In this document: positions 3,235 through 9,770 of the stretch, piece by piece
Layout: every line of letters starts with the position of its first letter
How positions within the stretch are numbered: the stretch's first letter is position 1
DNA from: Methanotrichaceae archaeon
GTDB lineage: Archaea > Halobacteriota > Methanosarcinia > Methanotrichales > Methanotrichaceae
Assembly (NCBI GenBank): GCA_013329455.1
Contig: DUKF01000118.1
Location: 1 to 14,967 of the forward strand
DNA length: 14,967 nucleotides
Direction of reading: 5' to 3'
Notes under the pieces: generated by a model
What the model was told of the DNA's origin: nothing
Seen by the model: the letters and a program-made list of their open reading frames with translations, nothing else
Databases searched by the model: none
Made by a program: the position numbers and the translations under genes

Positions 3235-3258
3235 ATGGCGAAGCCAGTTGTACCTGCA

Positions 3259-4878
3259 ATGGACGTTTCGTACTCGGTCTGGCGCGAGATCGCGGTTGAG
3301 AAGCTGGAGTTAGGCGGCGAAAGTTTCTCATTTCTCTTCGATCGGCGCTATACGAACCGCCTGAACAGGATGAGCCGGGTATTTTTCGAGGCTTACGCGA
3401 AGGCCACTTTGGAGGTCTCGGCTGAGGAGGACCGTTTTCCGAGCCTCAGCGAGATCGAGTCCAGGATGGAGAGCGGCGCGATTTACGCCTACAAGGACCG
3501 GCTCACGAGGAGCACCGGGTTCTTCGAGGAGGTCAAGATCTCTGGGATATCCTATCTGATACCCAAGGCCAGACGTTTCGTTGACGAGACCGGGACCTAC
3601 ACAGATCTGATATTGGACCTAGAAAAGGGCGAGGTCGTCCTCCCCAAGAGGGATAAGACCTCGGCCATCGCGAGGTCTGGGGGGGCAGAACCCGAGGAGG
3701 AATCAACCGAGTCGGGCTCAACCGAGACGGAGCTGGAAGACGAAGAAGGGGACATTACGGTGGCCAGGGAAGGGCCACCATCCGAATTGGCCGGAGTTGA
3801 GAAGGAGCAGCCTCTGGAACCCGACGCCTTGCAGACGCCCCCAGAGGAGAAAGCCGAAGTAACTCGGGTCGAAGAGGCGGCCGCCGAGACGAAAGCAGAA
3901 GAGCCTCTTTTTGAAAAGGTGGGGCCGCCGGCCGAAGTTGATATCGAGACCGACCAGGCAACGCGAGCCATCGAGGCGGAGGCACCCAAAATCGGCGAGC
4001 CCCTCGAAAGGGCTCCGGCCGAGGTCCAGATTGGTGAGAAGGCACCTGTAGAGGTTGAAGAGGAATTTGAGGCCCCAGATGAGGAGATCCTCGTCGAGAC
4101 GGAAGAGCCGGAACCAGAGATGTATGAGGCCGCCTCAGAAAAGAGCGCTTCCGGCGCAGAGATCGAGGCGATGGAAAAGGGGGCAAAGGCTACCGAGCCG
4201 GAACAAAAGCCTCCAGCTTTGAAGAGGGCGGCTGCACCGTTGAAGCCCCAGCCGTCGGAGAAAAAGCCCGGAAAGGGGTTCGCAGGTTGGCGCAGAGACC
4301 ATAAGGGGCCGTTTCTGGCCCTGGCCGCCCTGGTCCTAGTCCTCATACTGGCCGCCTTTTACATCTGGTCGCCCCTGAACCCGGAGACACCGGCAACGCC
4401 AGCCCAGCCATCTGATTTTGTCGGCTATTCTGCTTACCTAACTAACACGACCGGAAACATCTATCTGAATCTCGACGTCACAAACCCCAAGGGCCTGGAG
4501 AGCGAGGTCGAACTGGTGCTGCCACCGGACGTGGACAAGAGCATCAGCGCCACGGGCGGTATCGTCACCATATCCTATACCAACAACACGGTGATCCGGC
4601 TGGTCTCCAGCAACAACGCCAGCGTCTCGGTCGCCCTCACCGACGAGTACGTCCTCGTCCCCGTGACCTTCAACCTGGCGATCCCGCAAGGGTACGAGTC
4701 GAGCGTCCTCGTCTACGACAAGGACTACAAGGTCAGCCGAACCAACAGCACCATCAACCTCTGGTGCAACTGCACTGATGACCATCTAGAGTTCGATCAG
4801 ATCTACAATGCGAAAAAAGTTTCTGGCGATCCCGGTCCCCAGGAGAGAGGTCCAGAGAACGTTACAGATGGTCCATGA
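3259..4878 (+). CDS. Single-span membrane protein with acidic linker and glycosylation-rich outer domain
   Basis: I do not recognise this protein (539 residues from this start). Its layout is clear. A folded N-terminal region of about 130 residues begins MDVSYSVWREIAVEKLEL. A low-complexity linker of about 200 residues rich in Glu, Pro and Ala follows (bases 3680-4200). Then comes a basic stretch ending in GWRRDHKG, one membrane span (FLALAALVLVLILAAFYIW, bases 4312-4368), and a C-terminal domain of about 170 residues. The outer domain holds six N-x-S/T sites (NTT, NNT, NAS, NST, NCT, NVT), as expected for an N-glycosylated archaeal surface domain; the basic flank puts the N-terminus inside. 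The ATG at 3235 is also possible, but a TATA-like box abuts it and fits the ATG at 3259. The last 71 bases overlap taw2. A sensor, anchor or envelope-spanning scaffold would fit; none is shown. Confidence 0.75.
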   Translation: MDVSYSVWREIAVEKLELGGESFSFLFDRRYTNRLNRMSRVFFEAYAKATLEVSAEEDRFPSLSEIESRMESGAIYAYKDRLTRSTGFFEEVKISGISYLIPKARRFVDETGTYTDLILDLEKGEVVLPKRDKTSAIARSGGAEPEEESTESGSTETELEDEEGDITVAREGPPSELAGVEKEQPLEPDALQTPPEEKAEVTRVEEAAAETKAEEPLFEKVGPPAEVDIETDQATRAIEAEAPKIGEPLERAPAEVQIGEKAPVEVEEEFEAPDEEILVETEEPEPEMYEAASEKSASGAEIEAMEKGAKATEPEQKPPALKRAAAPLKPQPSEKKPGKGFAGWRRDHKGPFLALAALVLVLILAAFYIWSPLNPETPATPAQPSDFVGYSAYLTNTTGNIYLNLDVTNPKGLESEVELVLPPDVDKSISATGGIVTISYTNNTVIRLVSSNNASVSVALTDEYVLVPVTFNLAIPQGYESSVLVYDKDYKVSRTNSTINLWCNCTDDHLEFDQIYNAKKVSGDPGPQERGPENVTDGP

Positions 4879-5874: not shown

Positions 5875-6513
5875 TTGAAGATATCGTGGTTGGGGCATTC
5901 CTGTTTCGAGATAGTTGACAGCGAGGGAAGGACGATAGTGACCGATCCTTTCGACGACACTGTGGGTTACGATCTGCCCCGCGTTCGGGCTGACGTGATC
6001 ACGATGAGTCACGATCATCACGATCACAACAACATCGGCGTCGTGGAGGGCGAGCCGCCCGTGGTCACCGGCTCCGGGAGACAGACCGTTGCGGGGATCG
6101 AGTTTGAGGGCGTGCAAGTCTTCCACGACGAGTTGGGCGGAAAGCTCCGCGGCAAGAACGTGATATTCTGTTTTTCCGTCGACGGCGTGCGGGTGTGTCA
6201 TCTGGGCGATCTGGGCCATCTTCTGAGCGAAGACGAAGTGAACGCCGTGGGCGATGTTGATGTACTCTTGATTCCCGTGGGCGGAGTCTACACCATCGAT
6301 GCTGCCGGTGCCAAGAAGGTGGTAGAGCAGATCAAGCCTCGTCTGGTGATACCCATGCACTTCAGGAGCGATGCTTTCGATGTCGATCCCGTCGACTGGT
6401 TCTTGGAGGGGCAGAAGGTCGAGCGGCCGGGAAAGAGCATAACGGAGGACGACCTACCCATCGAGGGCAGAAAGATTGTGCTATTGGAGTGCGATCGGCC
6501 TTCGGACCGATAA
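5875..6513 (+). CDS. Metal-dependent hydrolase, MBL fold (UPF0173/COG2220 type)
   Basis: A 212-residue cytoplasmic beta-lactamase-fold hydrolase. The metal site is visible: MKISWLGHSCFEI at the N-terminus, SHDHHDHNN for the HxHxDH motif, VCHLGDLGH with the bridging Asp, PVGGVYTIDAAGA, and PMHFRSD for the last His. Members of this family are often annotated only as metal-dependent hydrolases, and the substrate is unknown. The gene starts with TTG, shown by a perfect GGTGAT four bases upstream and by homology beginning at this codon. It has its own AT-rich promoter region after taw2 (53-base gap). Length and motifs are complete, so it should be active. The closing residues after DLPIEGRKIVLLE are variable. 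Confidence 0.9.
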   Translation: MKISWLGHSCFEIVDSEGRTIVTDPFDDTVGYDLPRVRADVITMSHDHHDHNNIGVVEGEPPVVTGSGRQTVAGIEFEGVQVFHDELGGKLRGKNVIFCFSVDGVRVCHLGDLGHLLSEDEVNAVGDVDVLLIPVGGVYTIDAAGAKKVVEQIKPRLVIPMHFRSDAFDVDPVDWFLEGQKVERPGKSITEDDLPIEGRKIVLLECDRPSDR

Positions 6514-6517
6514 AATA

Positions 6518-6530
6518 TTTATATTATTTA
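6518..6530 (+). promoter_or_regulatory. Box A (TATA) for the multi-span membrane protein
   Basis: TTTATATTATTTA lies 17-29 bases before the ATG at 6547, directly after the TAA of the hydrolase gene. No Shine-Dalgarno match is found between box and ATG, so a nearly leaderless message is likely. Confidence 0.5.
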
Positions 6531-6546
6531 TGCAGTACATATTTCC

Positions 6547-7047
6547 ATGAGTTTCCAGACGTCGGCGTCCCCCAAGGCCGCGGTTTTACTCTTCAAGGCG
6601 ACGATGGCCGCGGGGACTGTTGGGATATTCCTAGGCATCTATTTCGCCTTCACAGACCCGATCCTATCAGTGAAGGTCGCCGCCGCCCTGCTGGTGGGCG
6701 TCGTCGGAGTCATCAGCTTTCTGAGGCACAGCGTCTTCTGGCGTTCCGACCAGGCGCGTATGGGCTGGGCCCAGGACAATCCCGCCTTCCAGATGGAGGT
6801 GGGTTTTGCAAACCTCGCCCTCGGGCTGGTGGCGCTGGCAGCAGTCCTCTTCTCGTGGGGATCCGTTGCTTACGGGACGATGTTATTATCTTACGGCCTG
6901 TACTTGGCGGGCTCGATCGTGGTTCATCTCAGGGACGCTGGAGCCTCCGACCCGGAACGCCGGTCCCGCGTCTTCGCAAAGGTCTTGAACACCGGCATCT
7001 TCGCAGCCGCCCTGCTGGCCTTCGGAGTCTACGCCATCTCTCTATGA
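6547..7047 (+). CDS. Multi-span membrane protein, probably DUF6790-like
   Basis: A 166-residue integral membrane protein with about five hydrophobic segments (near residues 17-36, 40-59, 85-104, 107-126 and 147-165). Between the second and third lies a conserved-looking polar loop, FLRHSVFWRSDQARMGW, followed by NPAFQMEVGFANLALGL, which recalls the DUF6790 family of small archaeal and bacterial membrane proteins; I recall this pattern and cannot test it. No catalytic motif is evident and function is unknown. It is preceded by a clear TATA-like box and seems to be transcribed alone. The gene is GC-rich like its left-hand neighbours, so it marks the last normal-composition gene before the tRNA and the AT-rich island. 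Confidence 0.75.
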   Translation: MSFQTSASPKAAVLLFKATMAAGTVGIFLGIYFAFTDPILSVKVAAALLVGVVGVISFLRHSVFWRSDQARMGWAQDNPAFQMEVGFANLALGLVALAAVLFSWGSVAYGTMLLSYGLYLAGSIVVHLRDAGASDPERRSRVFAKVLNTGIFAAALLAFGVYAISL

Positions 7048-7134
7048 GGGGCCCGTCCCAGGCCCGGAACCTTCCTCGGGATGCCTTCTTCGGATCGATA
7101 GGTTAATACGTGAAAAGCGTGACTGAGGTGCTGA

Positions 7135-7207
7135 AGCCCGGTGATGTAGCGGTCAATCATACGAGGCCCTGGACCTCGTCACCAAGGTTCGAATCCTTGC
7201 CGGGCTA
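7135..7207 (+). tRNA. tRNA-Gln (anticodon CTG), with C at position 33
   Basis: Folds as a full cloverleaf of 73 bases. Acceptor stem AGCCCGG/CCGGGCT with discriminator A; D-stem ATG/CAT; anticodon stem CGAGG/CCTCG around a 7-base loop CCCTGGA; T-stem CAAGG/CCTTG around TTCGAAT. The anticodon is CTG at 7169-7171, reading CAG (Gln). The base before it (position 33, base 7168) is C, while nearly all elongator tRNAs have U33. CCA is not encoded, as in many archaeal tRNAs. A T-rich stretch (TTTAATTTT, 7211-7219) follows and may end transcription. The tRNA borders the AT-rich two-gene island downstream. Confidence 0.92.
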
Positions 7208-7232
7208 CTGAACTTTAATTTTGCCAATTGTG

Positions 7233-7241
7233 TTTTATAAT
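7233..7241 (+). promoter_or_regulatory. Box A (TATA) for the HicBA-like operon
   Basis: TTTTATAAT is a strong TATA-like match between the tRNA and the AT-rich operon. Transcription would begin near 7262-7266, giving a leader of about 60 bases before the ATG at 7325. Confidence 0.45.
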
Positions 7242-7324
7242 CCTTAAAAAACCGATAGTCTAATAAGTCAGATAACCTTAACAAGTCTCAGATTAGGTTG
7301 CCAAGACTACAGAGGTTTAAAAAA

Positions 7325-8386
7325 ATGCCTCCAAAATTTATCTATAAGCTGGAAGGAGAATCCGTATCTTTAAAAAAGATCCCTGCCGAGCTTATAGGGC
7401 GTGTACTTGTAAACGTGCAATCATTAATATATTCAGTTGGTCGTTATAGTTGGCCGGATGTATCAGTTCAGGGAAGGTGCCCAAAAATAATAGAGGATTT
7501 ATATTCATTAAATGTCGGTTTCCGTGAGGGATGCGTTGAATTGCAATTTAACCCGTCACAAATTCAGTACAGCTTGGAAGATCCATCAAGAACGGTACAA
7601 GAACCCGCATTTTCTAAATTAGCTACTTTATTTGGAGTATTGTCTGGGCCCGATAAGGAATATGATGACGTAAAAGAAGAGGTTAAAAAAATAATTGAGG
7701 ATCAGAAGACCAGGGTCGCAATATTAAACCATATGAACCGTATTATACCGCCAAGTAATATGCATGCCAAAGTAAAGATCGAAGATGTGCATTTAGAAAA
7801 TCCAGAAATTGATATTCAGCACATACATTTTAGAGATCGGGTCTTAAGACTATTGGAAGAAGAAACTGAAAATGATGAAGTAAAAATCCGAGGAGCAATT
7901 GTTCGAATCAAAGACGATGTTCCTAATTCGCTATTTTGGGTTAAAAGAGATTCAGGAAATCTAGCAAAGGTTTGTTTACCCGAAGATATGCGCTCTCAAA
8001 TAATAGGATATCTCGCCGATCGAACCCCAGTATCGATATCTGGAATAGGACAAAAAATTGGACGAACACTCGAAATTATAGAGCTAGATAGTATTAAAGA
8101 AAGTGCAAAAATAACTATTGATACGGCATCTGATATAAAACTACATAATCCGATAGAGGCAACACTTTCTTATGAAAGATACGATGAAGACGATGAATTT
8201 TGGGTAGTAAGCAATGACGAATTGGGCATTAACGGTGTTGACGAAACCGTAGATAAAGCTAGAGAGATGTTTGAAGAAAGCCTTTACGAAGATTATCTAG
8301 TATATAAGGATATTGAAGATGATAGATTATCAGATAAGGCATTATTATTAAAAAGACATCTTATAGATTTGTTTGAATACCGGTGA
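7325..8386 (+). CDS. Three-part protein with C-terminal HicB-like domain (candidate antitoxin)
   Basis: A 353-residue soluble protein that I cannot assign to a named family. Three parts can be seen. Residues 1-170 form an alpha/beta region starting FIYKLEGESVSLKKIP, with REGCVELQFNPS at 67-78. Residues 185-260 look like a small OB-type beta barrel (VKIRGAIVRIKDD, LFWVKRDSG, PVSISGIGQKIG). Residues 275-350 resemble a HicB antitoxin: ATLSYERYDEDDEFWVVSND, GVDETVDKAREMFEESL, and a helical end LSDKALLLKRHLIDLF. I chose ATG 7325 over TTG 7298 because AGAGGT lies 8 bases upstream. AT-rich codon use differs sharply from all earlier genes, which suggests horizontal acquisition. The stop overlaps the ribosome binding site of the HicA-like gene, so the two are co-translated. 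Antitoxin function is inference from domain resemblance and pairing. Confidence 0.72.
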   Translation: MPPKFIYKLEGESVSLKKIPAELIGRVLVNVQSLIYSVGRYSWPDVSVQGRCPKIIEDLYSLNVGFREGCVELQFNPSQIQYSLEDPSRTVQEPAFSKLATLFGVLSGPDKEYDDVKEEVKKIIEDQKTRVAILNHMNRIIPPSNMHAKVKIEDVHLENPEIDIQHIHFRDRVLRLLEEETENDEVKIRGAIVRIKDDVPNSLFWVKRDSGNLAKVCLPEDMRSQIIGYLADRTPVSISGIGQKIGRTLEIIELDSIKESAKITIDTASDIKLHNPIEATLSYERYDEDDEFWVVSNDELGINGVDETVDKAREMFEESLYEDYLVYKDIEDDRLSDKALLLKRHLIDLFEYR

Positions 8387-8387
8387 T
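8382..8387 (+). promoter_or_regulatory. Ribosome binding site GGTGAT overlapping the upstream stop codon
   Basis: GGTGAT contains the TGA stop (8384-8386) of the first gene and lies 3 bases before the GTG at 8391. It rules out the longer TTG start at 8373, which would put the site inside the coding region, and indicates coupled translation of the pair. Confidence 0.65.
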
Positions 8388-8390
8388 GAA

Positions 8391-8684
8391 GTGGTACATG
8401 TGACGAAAAGAAGAAATATAGATTCAGCTTTTACGGGTAAAGGATTTATTAAGACTCCTTTGAGAAATGGGCACTTCTCGTATCAATTGGTGATTGATGG
8501 AAAGATCCAAACTATAAGGACAAAAATGAGCATGGGAAGTTCTCATAGAGAATTAGGAAAACCCCTTATTTCAAAAATGGCTAAGGATCTAAAAATGACG
8601 CCAAAAAAGTTCTCTGATTATGTCGTATGCAATTATTCCTACGACGATTATGTGGCTTATCTAAAAGATAATGATAACATATAA
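8391..8684 (+). CDS. HicA-like small protein (candidate RNase toxin)
   Basis: A 97-residue basic protein with the layout of the HicA/dsRBD-like fold. Residues 10-19 (IDSAFTGKGF) match the HicA first helix ending in GF/GW. RNGHFSYQLVIDGK (25-38) corresponds to the GSHhxF strand carrying the catalytic His, here His28 in Asn-Gly-His. TIRTKMSMGSSHRELGKPL (41-59) and SKMAKDLKMTPKKF (61-74) match the final strand and helix. A C-terminal extension, VVCNYSYDDYVAYLKD (78-93), goes beyond classic HicA of about 60-80 residues. HicA toxins cleave mRNA when freed from HicB. The start is GTG, fixed by GGTGAT three bases upstream and overlapping the previous stop. A related archaeal set of short HicA-like proteins with this extension is my recollection. 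Assignment rests on motif pattern only. Confidence 0.68.
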   Translation: MVHVTKRRNIDSAFTGKGFIKTPLRNGHFSYQLVIDGKIQTIRTKMSMGSSHRELGKPLISKMAKDLKMTPKKFSDYVVCNYSYDDYVAYLKDNDNI

Positions 8685-8698
8685 CTATATTCCGTCCT

Positions 8699-8713
8699 CT
8701 CAACTCAACTCAA
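8699..8713 (+). repeat. Tandem CTCAA x3
   Basis: Three exact copies of a 5-base unit directly after the HicA-like gene. It is a short microsatellite with no clear role; it is listed because it marks the end of the AT-rich operon. Confidence 0.6.
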
Positions 8714-8767
8714 CTCCGATATTATTCCATTTTGTAATTTATATTTTATATAGTTGCCACTGTGGGT

Positions 8768-8813
8768 CATTGAAAATCGCAAACAATTGACCACTTCGGC
8801 GAGATCCTATAAA
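8768..8813 (+). repeat. Diverged direct repeat, copy 1
   Basis: Pairs with copy 2 at 9403-9448. Ungapped, 35 of 46 bases agree. Best shared blocks are AAATCGCAA, ATTGAC and GAGATCCTA. The copies flank the minus-strand secreted-protein gene. Confidence 0.6.
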
Positions 8814-8920
8814 ATTGGTGCACGAAGCTGGTTTTATAGAATCTCGACGACCCGCACCCAAAGCCCGAATGGGCGGGCGAAGGTACGCACCCCTCCGCCC
8901 AATCGCTCGGGAATTGACGT

Positions 8921-9349
8921 TTACTCCACAACGCGGCGAAGCATCTGTACGAATGTCTCGCCCGGCTCGCCGTCCTGCTCACCATCCTGAATGTAAATCA
9001 GCTCGATCGTGTCTTCAGAGATGATCGTTCCCACGTCGTAGCCCGAGATGAACTCGGCGATGTAGAAGGTTTTGTTATCCAGGCCGATGGCCCCGGCAAA
9101 GCCCTCGACCACATCAGTCTCGTTCAACTGGTAGGTCATCTCCCCGTTGAAGACGCGCCCCTTCTGCTCTGCGATCGTGAAGGTCAGGTTGCCGTAATCC
9201 ACCCCCACGACGTAACCAGTTCCCTCTTGATACCCAGGCCCCGAACCGACCCAGTTCCCCACCAGGTCGGGGACATCCGCCGCACAGATGCCCGTGGCCG
9301 AGATGGCCAGAACCAGTACCAAAAGTCCAAAACACCAAATCTTTCTCAT
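8921..9349 (-). CDS. Secreted beta-barrel-like protein of unknown function
   Basis: A 142-residue protein with a clear signal peptide (MRKIWCFGLLVLVLAISATG, cleavage likely after CAA at residue 24). The mature part starts DVPDLVGNWVGSG and runs through short alternating strands (GTGYVVGVDYGNLTFTIAEQ, GEMTYQLNETDVVEGFAGAI, KTFYIAEFISGYDVGTII) to an acidic loop GEQDGEPGE and the end QMLRRVVE. The LVGNW start and the strand pattern recall lipocalin-like proteins common in methanogens; this is a fold guess without a ligand. One N-glycosylation site each lies at NLT, NET and NKT. The ATG is the only start before the signal peptide. The gene stands alone on the minus strand, GC-rich, flanked by the two copies of the diverged repeat, and has no evident partner. 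Confidence 0.78.
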   Translation of the reverse strand: MRKIWCFGLLVLVLAISATGICAADVPDLVGNWVGSGPGYQEGTGYVVGVDYGNLTFTIAEQKGRVFNGEMTYQLNETDVVEGFAGAIGLDNKTFYIAEFISGYDVGTIISEDTIELIYIQDGEQDGEPGETFVQMLRRVVE

Positions 9350-9770
9350 GCACTTATATTAGCTCATCTCTGACTGATGAATTTTTCTATGCGTACGTTG
9401 ATCAATGGAAATCGCAATCGATTGACAGATTAGTTGAGATCCTACAAATGCGGCACCTGATGCTGACGATATCGACGACTCTGATGAAGTTGACAAAGCT
9501 GACGAAGCTTATTTCAAAATCTCTTTCAGAAGGTCTTACGACCATCAAACGCCCCAAAAGGAGAATGAGAATAAGATTTTATATCCGACAACGCCAACGT
9601 GCCATCAATTACAGGAGTATAGTCGATCTGACCCTCCGGAGGATAACAGACACATTCGGCCGCCTTCTTGTCGAGGTGCACGAGCGGATGAGACGCTTTG
9701 CGAGAAGGCTTGAAAAGGCTTATATCTTGCGATCTAAAGATCTCAGACAGGATTACCAGAAGTGATCGAC
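9350..9770. other. Region without a convincing gene
   Basis: About 420 bases lie between two small secreted-protein genes. They hold the second diverged repeat (9403-9448) and, near the right end, a TTATATC box (9719-9725) likely to drive the next gene. A 105-codon ATG frame at 9448-9765 gives a Lys/Arg-rich, low-complexity product without motif or ribosome binding site. Another frame from 9437 reads an Asp-rich, then disordered sequence with no start codon, ending at a stop near 9716. Both look like decayed or chance coding. Confidence 0.5.
9403..9448 (+). repeat. Diverged direct repeat, copy 2
   Basis: Second copy of the unit at 8768-8813, 635 bases away in the same orientation. Similarity fades after CCTACAAA. 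It lies just upstream, in minus-strand terms, of the secreted-protein gene. Confidence 0.6.

Follow-up and report, generated by a model that had tools for sequence, protein, structure and literature searches.

The 14,967-nucleotide stretch of Methanotrichaceae archaeon DNA analysed here (contig DUKF01000118.1, hereafter the window) carries, directly after a tRNA-Gln gene, a pair of genes (7325–8684) that we regard, with a probability of about 85%, as a Class 8 hicBA type II toxin-antitoxin module gained by transfer, in which the C-terminal domain of a large HicB-like antitoxin would hold a HicA-fold RNase inactive. Homology, folds, pairing, the variable locus and a viral copy were computed here; RNase activity, toxicity, neutralisation, regulation and role are what we infer. 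Function as an RNase toxin with its antidote is likely and a role in defence is plausible, with phage defence as a hypothesis. A sequence-only reading of the window had proposed a HicBA-like toxin-antitoxin pair acquired by transfer, and profiles, structure models, co-occurrence, the variable locus and the viral copy all speak for it. The same reading had called the pair undescribed, which does not hold: Class 8 hicBA, in the sections of Gerdes 2024 (PMC10865869) on which we draw throughout, has the same sizes, order and domain layout. The pair is a member of an already known class, and what our analysis adds is modest, namely the copy found in a virus, antitoxin heads that can be exchanged and a variable site at tRNA-Gln. 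The features of the locus are as follows.

7135..7208, + strand: tRNA-Gln (CTG), detected by ARAGORN; relatives have this tRNA close to the same upstream gene and differ in what comes after it
7268..7307, + strand: leader with two 20-base direct repeats, 70% alike, a weak candidate for an operator (repeat search, window only)
7311..7316, + strand: Shine-Dalgarno (SD)-like AGAGGT, 8 bases upstream of the first gene's ATG (sequence)
7325..8386, + strand: Class 8 hicB-like antitoxin gene, 353 aa (open reading frame (ORF), homologues, model, domain layout as in Gerdes Class 8)
7325..7858, + strand: N-terminal module of the antitoxin (N-module), residues 1–178 (family hidden Markov model (HMM), structure model)
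7865..8110, + strand: middle domain of the antitoxin with an oligonucleotide/oligosaccharide-binding (OB) fold, residues 181–262 (structure comparison)
8132..8383, + strand: C-terminal HicB-like domain of the antitoxin (C-domain), presumed toxin-binding, residues 270–353 (profile comparison, model)
8382..8387, + strand: SD-like GGTGAT over the stop of the first gene (sequence), from which coupling is expected
8400..8684, + strand: Class 8 hicA-like toxin gene, 94 aa from GTG 8400 (ORF, alignment, profiles, model)
8472..8474, + strand: codon of His25, in the column of the HicA catalytic histidine (alignment)

Comparison with known hicBA classes

The definition of Class 8 rests on sequence analysis and modelling. 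Its HicB of 331–356 codons (342–356 aa in the text) consists of an N-domain without known relatives, a middle resembling lysyl-tRNA synthetase (LysRS) and a C-terminal HicB fold, while its HicA of ~95 aa has two additional C-terminal helices; no DNA-binding domain was recognisable (PMC10865869). The window pair agrees in these respects, with moderate support for the C-terminal HicB fold. Its hicB stands upstream on the same strand and encodes 353 aa, residues 181–262 form an OB fold like those of aspartyl-tRNA synthetase (AspRS) and LysRS, the HicA of 94 aa carries the two extra helices, and the genes are linked, 13 bases apart (overlapping if a TTG start is used). Nothing essential differs from the class as described there; particular to the window member are its place in an AT-rich unit at tRNA-Gln and a HicA diverged beyond PF07927.

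The classic hicAB loci of Classes 1–4 (E. coli, B. pseudomallei, Y. pestis) share with the window a HicA-fold toxin with a conserved histidine and a HicB-like partner domain. However, the toxins of Classes 1–2 measure 60–85 aa against ~94 aa here, the window partner is several times larger with its HicB-like domain at the C-terminal rather than the N-terminal end and no visible helix-turn-helix (HTH) or ribbon-helix-helix (RHH), and the gene order is reversed. That the order departs from classic hicAB, as the sequence-only reading had it, is true of the best-studied bacterial loci but not of most classic HicA loci that we examined. All 30 of these (those returned for the best-scoring rows rather than a random sample, two of them with identical HicBs) have a HicB-like neighbour on the same strand, upstream in 26 and downstream in 4, in agreement with PMC10865869, where the B-A order is given for Classes 2 and 5–8 and hicBA lacking a DNA-binding domain is named as the most frequent bicistronic arrangement. 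Class 5/6 hicBA, with an N-terminal Phd/YefM domain, has the B-A order and the HicB part on the C-terminal side as in the window, whose N-terminus is instead a 178-residue module followed by an OB fold. The Shared Domain of Class 5/6 HicA spans 55–60 aa, for which the 94 aa of the window protein leave little room; no search for this domain was made. The N-terminus of VapB/DUF7557 antitoxins (PF02697, PF24434) is found with the same C-domain at 21 homologous loci and is not in the window protein.

The proposed HicA-like toxin

The 94-aa protein of the window itself does not match PF07927, being too diverged for the profile, but 20 of 30 aligned family members do (best 6.3e-8), and profile-profile comparison of the toxin family with 25 classic HicAs gives 97.3%, against at most 1.1% in 60 shuffles. 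His25 is invariant in the alignment (30/30) and aligns with the H of the GSH motif in classic HicA. Two residues before this histidine, where Gly22 stands in B. pseudomallei HicA, the window has N23; the glycine is present in 7 of the 30 aligned members and absent from 23. This glycine has been reported as necessary for toxicity in one HicA, so it is not a defining feature of the whole HicA family. Our model of the toxin shows a double-stranded RNA-binding domain (dsRBD) core followed by two extra C-terminal helices (H68–76 and H81–90), which supports a predicted HicA fold for the small protein. The HicA-like nature of the second gene had been put forward from the letters alone, and it is upheld by the profile comparison, the invariant histidine and the model; the lack of a HicA fold in the second protein, named beforehand as a refuter, was not seen. 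No NCBIfam family matched more than 2 of the 30 toxins, PDB sequence searches run with profiles of both proteins had no hit under E 0.1, and PADLOC gave nothing for the window pair.

The start of the small gene bears on the layout of the operon. The ORF list places it at TTG 8373, and only with this start do the genes overlap as had been claimed. The family alignment fits GTG 8400, 13 bases past the stop of the first gene, so that the genes need not overlap. The SD-like string reported over the stop codon is indeed there, as GGTGAT (8382–8387) spans the TGA at 8384–8386.

The proposed HicB-like antitoxin

Profile comparison of the C-domain with classic HicB gives 43.6% and a score of 26.6, against 11.4 for the best of the 54 shuffles, out of 60, that yielded a score, and the model of this domain shows the b-b-b-a order. 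The structural match list for the antitoxin has no HicB row and is filled by OB folds. The profile comparison supports the earlier proposal that the first gene ends in a HicB-like domain, and support for a C-terminal HicB fold is moderate. For residues 181–262 the top Foldseek rows are OBody, AspRS and LysRS (E 1e-3 to 1e-2). Of the 66 upstream ORFs, that of the window among them, 30 match the N-module HMM (one of them partially), as does a viral protein, gp38, described below. No HTH or RHH was seen in the window antitoxin, and PHROGs assigned 3 of 15 antitoxins to a single unnamed family, with a best value of 4.9e-4.

The PHD_like family (PF12910) matches weakly, with a best value of 8.9e-4 among the long antitoxins (6 of 15) and of 0.0061 in a second set (5 of 16 rows). 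The cut-off is 27 bits, and the window protein reaches 13.4 and 17.0. We take these matches to reflect the shared HicB-like part and reject membership of the family.

Pairing and distribution

We collected 69 distinct homologues of the small gene, the window included, leaving out weaker rows of the genome search and later rows of the family search. The partner C-domain or a remnant of it lies directly upstream on the same strand in all 66 loci with upstream sequence; the HMM search recognises the C-domain in 65 of the 66 upstream ORFs, and the last locus has a remnant. For the remaining three homologues (L132, L143 and L144) the contig ends short of the partner. Our own sorting of the upstream ORFs gave 30 long antitoxins made up of N-module, OB fold and C-domain (of which one is truncated at its N-terminus and one at its C-terminus), 21 in which a short VapB-like N-terminus precedes the C-domain, 7 with another N-terminus before it, 5 with the C-domain alone, one (L122) that is cut inside by a contig end yet has the C-domain, and two decayed remnants (the second copy of L133, and L137). 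From the side of the antitoxin, the toxin gene adjoins 18 of 19 matches. The scattering of homologues mostly apart from each other, which the sequence-only reading had named as a refuter, was therefore not seen. At one locus (L045, G228:C6) an antitoxin C-domain has no HicA-like gene within 1.5 kb beside it; this is an orphan or a decayed pair.

Small-gene homologues of at least 70 bits occur in 53 of 392 genomes by our row count, with several copies in some; up to 4 toxin copies are present in one genome of the family f16. The ratio of nonsynonymous to synonymous rates (dN/dS) is 0.05–0.29 for both genes in 8 of 10 close pairs of loci, one of the eight having a dS of ~1.7, near saturation. 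By these rates the homologous pairs evolve under purifying selection. The other two comparisons are saturated in one or both genes, among them that of the window with L115, one of its two nearest relatives. Single-protein scans of genome contigs with both proteins and of viral contigs with two toxins gave no relatives, and tblastn of plasmids with three toxins and two antitoxins gave no match.

A copy in a tailed archaeal virus

The whole pair is carried by Methanocaldococcus fervens tailed virus 1 (MFTV1), in which gp38 (328 aa) and gp37 (104 aa) overlap by 8 bases and are annotated as hypothetical (NC_074641.1, L146:3001-4294). A phage search with two toxins found only MFTV1, the 2 matching records of 50,697 being the same virus.

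Exchangeable heads of the antitoxin

In the present loci the HicB-like part is constant and the rest of the antitoxin varies. Among the 21 antitoxins with a VapB-like N-terminus, DUF7557 is matched in 9 (best 4.1e-9) and VAPB_antitox in 9 (best 1.7e-5); the remaining heads were assigned to this type by eye from a common motif. On a HicA tree of 64 rows and 95 columns, in which many forks are unresolved, 10 changes account for the partner types, where shuffles take 28, and 3 for the VapB type. The starred branches of the tree force three gains of the VapB head. However, we rejected three independent gains: the approximately unbiased (AU) test rejects a single clade of all 21 VapB types (p 0.004) but no longer does so without L138 (p 0.10), and because of this dependence we claim two. 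The sequences thus support a VapB-type form that would have arisen at least twice. In the sections used here, the main text of Gerdes 2024 (PMC10865869) has no such form among its 14 classes, and literature searches gave no title on it among the matches listed. One statement in PMC2701414 describes HicA and HicB as a strictly unique pair.

The site after tRNA-Gln

The AT-rich two-gene stretch after a tRNA, as first noticed, is confirmed by composition: the gene pair has a GC content of 0.356 against 0.548 in 5,164 bases of flank, and GC is 0.32–0.38 across 7251–8750 against 0.55–0.63 in windows upstream of 7000. Across the homologous loci with enough flank the pair lies below its flank in 54 of 65, with a median difference of only 0.04, so the strong contrast is particular to the window locus and two relatives within the family, L114 (0.364 against 0.56) and L115 (0.386 against 0.527), and is not found in every copy.

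In the 8 same-genus genomes the tRNA-Gln is close to the upstream gene that also precedes it in the window (5875–6513). The small gene has no full-length homologue in any of them: five show no match and three show weak partial matches of 21–29 bits. Within the family, a homologue of at least 70 bits is present in 11 of 50 genomes by our count, its own included. The pair is absent after tRNA-Gln in all 6 readable relatives (five of the same genus and G303; loci L101, L102, L103, L106, L108 and L109). In four other relatives the contig stops less than 400 bases from the tRNA, too early for a reading; L116 was left out. What follows the tRNA varies: clearly AT-rich stretches in G171, G216 and G298, one at the far end in G303, and GC-rich genes in G296. 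The first gene after the tRNA is common to G171 and G299, and a 491-aa gene further on is common to G216 and G298. These observations support the gain of the pair by transfer into a variable site after tRNA-Gln. By reading of translations, the genes after tRNA-Gln in relatives include a GIY-YIG-like, a 538-aa P-loop ATPase-like and an 866-aa STAND-like gene.

An integrase-type island at the tRNA was rejected, as 6900–9500 holds no copy of the tRNA 3' end and no integrase was found. The only ORFs of at least 100 aa between 7209 and 8895 are those of the pair. The sole repeat touching the tRNA (33 bases, 73%, between its 5' side and 8374–8406) is taken for chance. On the other side of the tRNA, a DUF6790 gene (6547–7047) stands between the upstream gene and tRNA-Gln, and none of the 8 same-genus loci matches it at the DNA level; the corresponding region (window 6433–7090) is a gap of ~100–170 bases in 7 of these loci and of 1.1 kb in G298. 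Because of the missing match and the short gap, the upstream side (6433–7090) may be variable too.

Other features of the window

Right after the pair, the intergenic 8755–8865 contains a predicted hairpin (-33 kcal/mol, z -3.65); this segment matches 5 places in the relative G294 (71–77% identity), is single-copy in its own genome, and is perhaps a dispersed repeat element. The downstream gene 8921–9349 (- strand, 142 aa) has no Pfam match, and at least two similar stretches lie close together in several relatives; perhaps it comes from a tandemly duplicated family. The ORF 3235–4878 (+ strand, 547 aa) has no Pfam match at E 0.001. The window also encodes a class I lysyl-tRNA synthetase and TRM5/TYW2-type genes, from which we read it as archaeal. 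Rfam at gathering level gave no match in the window, not even for the tRNA-Gln (7135–7208) that ARAGORN detected.

Proposed mechanism and alternative explanations

In the module that we propose, the antitoxin would be made first, and the toxin would be translated by coupling through the SD-like string over the stop codon. The C-terminal HicB-like domain of the 353-residue antitoxin would bind the HicA-fold toxin and keep it inactive; the toxin is predicted to be a small RNase with one essential histidine which, once freed, would cut RNA and stop growth. Because the N-module and OB fold occupy the place where related antitoxins have a VapB-type DNA-binding domain, their job would most likely be regulatory, either dimerisation with operator binding or the sensing of a signal that frees the toxin. 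The unit would have been gained by transfer at the variable tRNA-Gln site, and its retention is probably owed to an addiction or anti-virus function. A further reading makes the N-module and OB fold a sensor that replaced the DNA-binding domain, with an infection or stress signal (a tRNA, a tRNA fragment or a viral nucleic acid) releasing HicA; such ligand-gated abortive infection, with a head swappable for the VapB type by recombination, is unlikely.

It is also possible, though quite improbable, that the window holds a decayed or domesticated HicBA whose toxin has lost RNase activity through its changed histidine environment, the unit now being a regulator or drifting. The window HicA lacks the glycine of Gly-x-His and the second histidine of the family, its end branch is long (0.94 against a median of 0.35), and decayed copies exist elsewhere in the family (L044, the second copy of L133, and L137). 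However, both reading frames of the window pair are intact, and the glycine is missing from most aligned members (23/30), which makes its absence a family trait. The purifying selection on other homologous pairs also speaks against decay, although the window itself, being saturated, could not be scored. An RNA-handling operon rather than a toxin-antitoxin module, with a tRNA-synthetase-like RNA-binding protein and a small dsRBD-like partner, would explain the likeness of the middle domain to the OB folds of AspRS and LysRS and the fact that the HicA fold is a dsRBD. It sits badly with the patchy distribution (53/392 genomes, several copies in some), with a VapB-like domain replacing the N-terminal part in 21 of 69 loci, with the invariance of the catalytic-type histidine and with the viral copy, and we consider it very improbable.

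Significance

Taking the pair as a Class 8 hicBA module, the presence of the full pair in an archaeal tailed virus links it to virus-host conflict. Only two of the contexts described in PMC10865869 had been studied experimentally, and how Class 8 operons are regulated without a DNA-binding domain was posed there as a question, on which the loci collected here bear. One HicA subfamily is partnered by the same C-domain carrying, in the same place, either the N-module with the OB fold (30/69) or a VapB-type N-terminus (21/69), and these natural head variants offer a direct way to tell which role the large head has, be it regulation, sensing or dimerisation.
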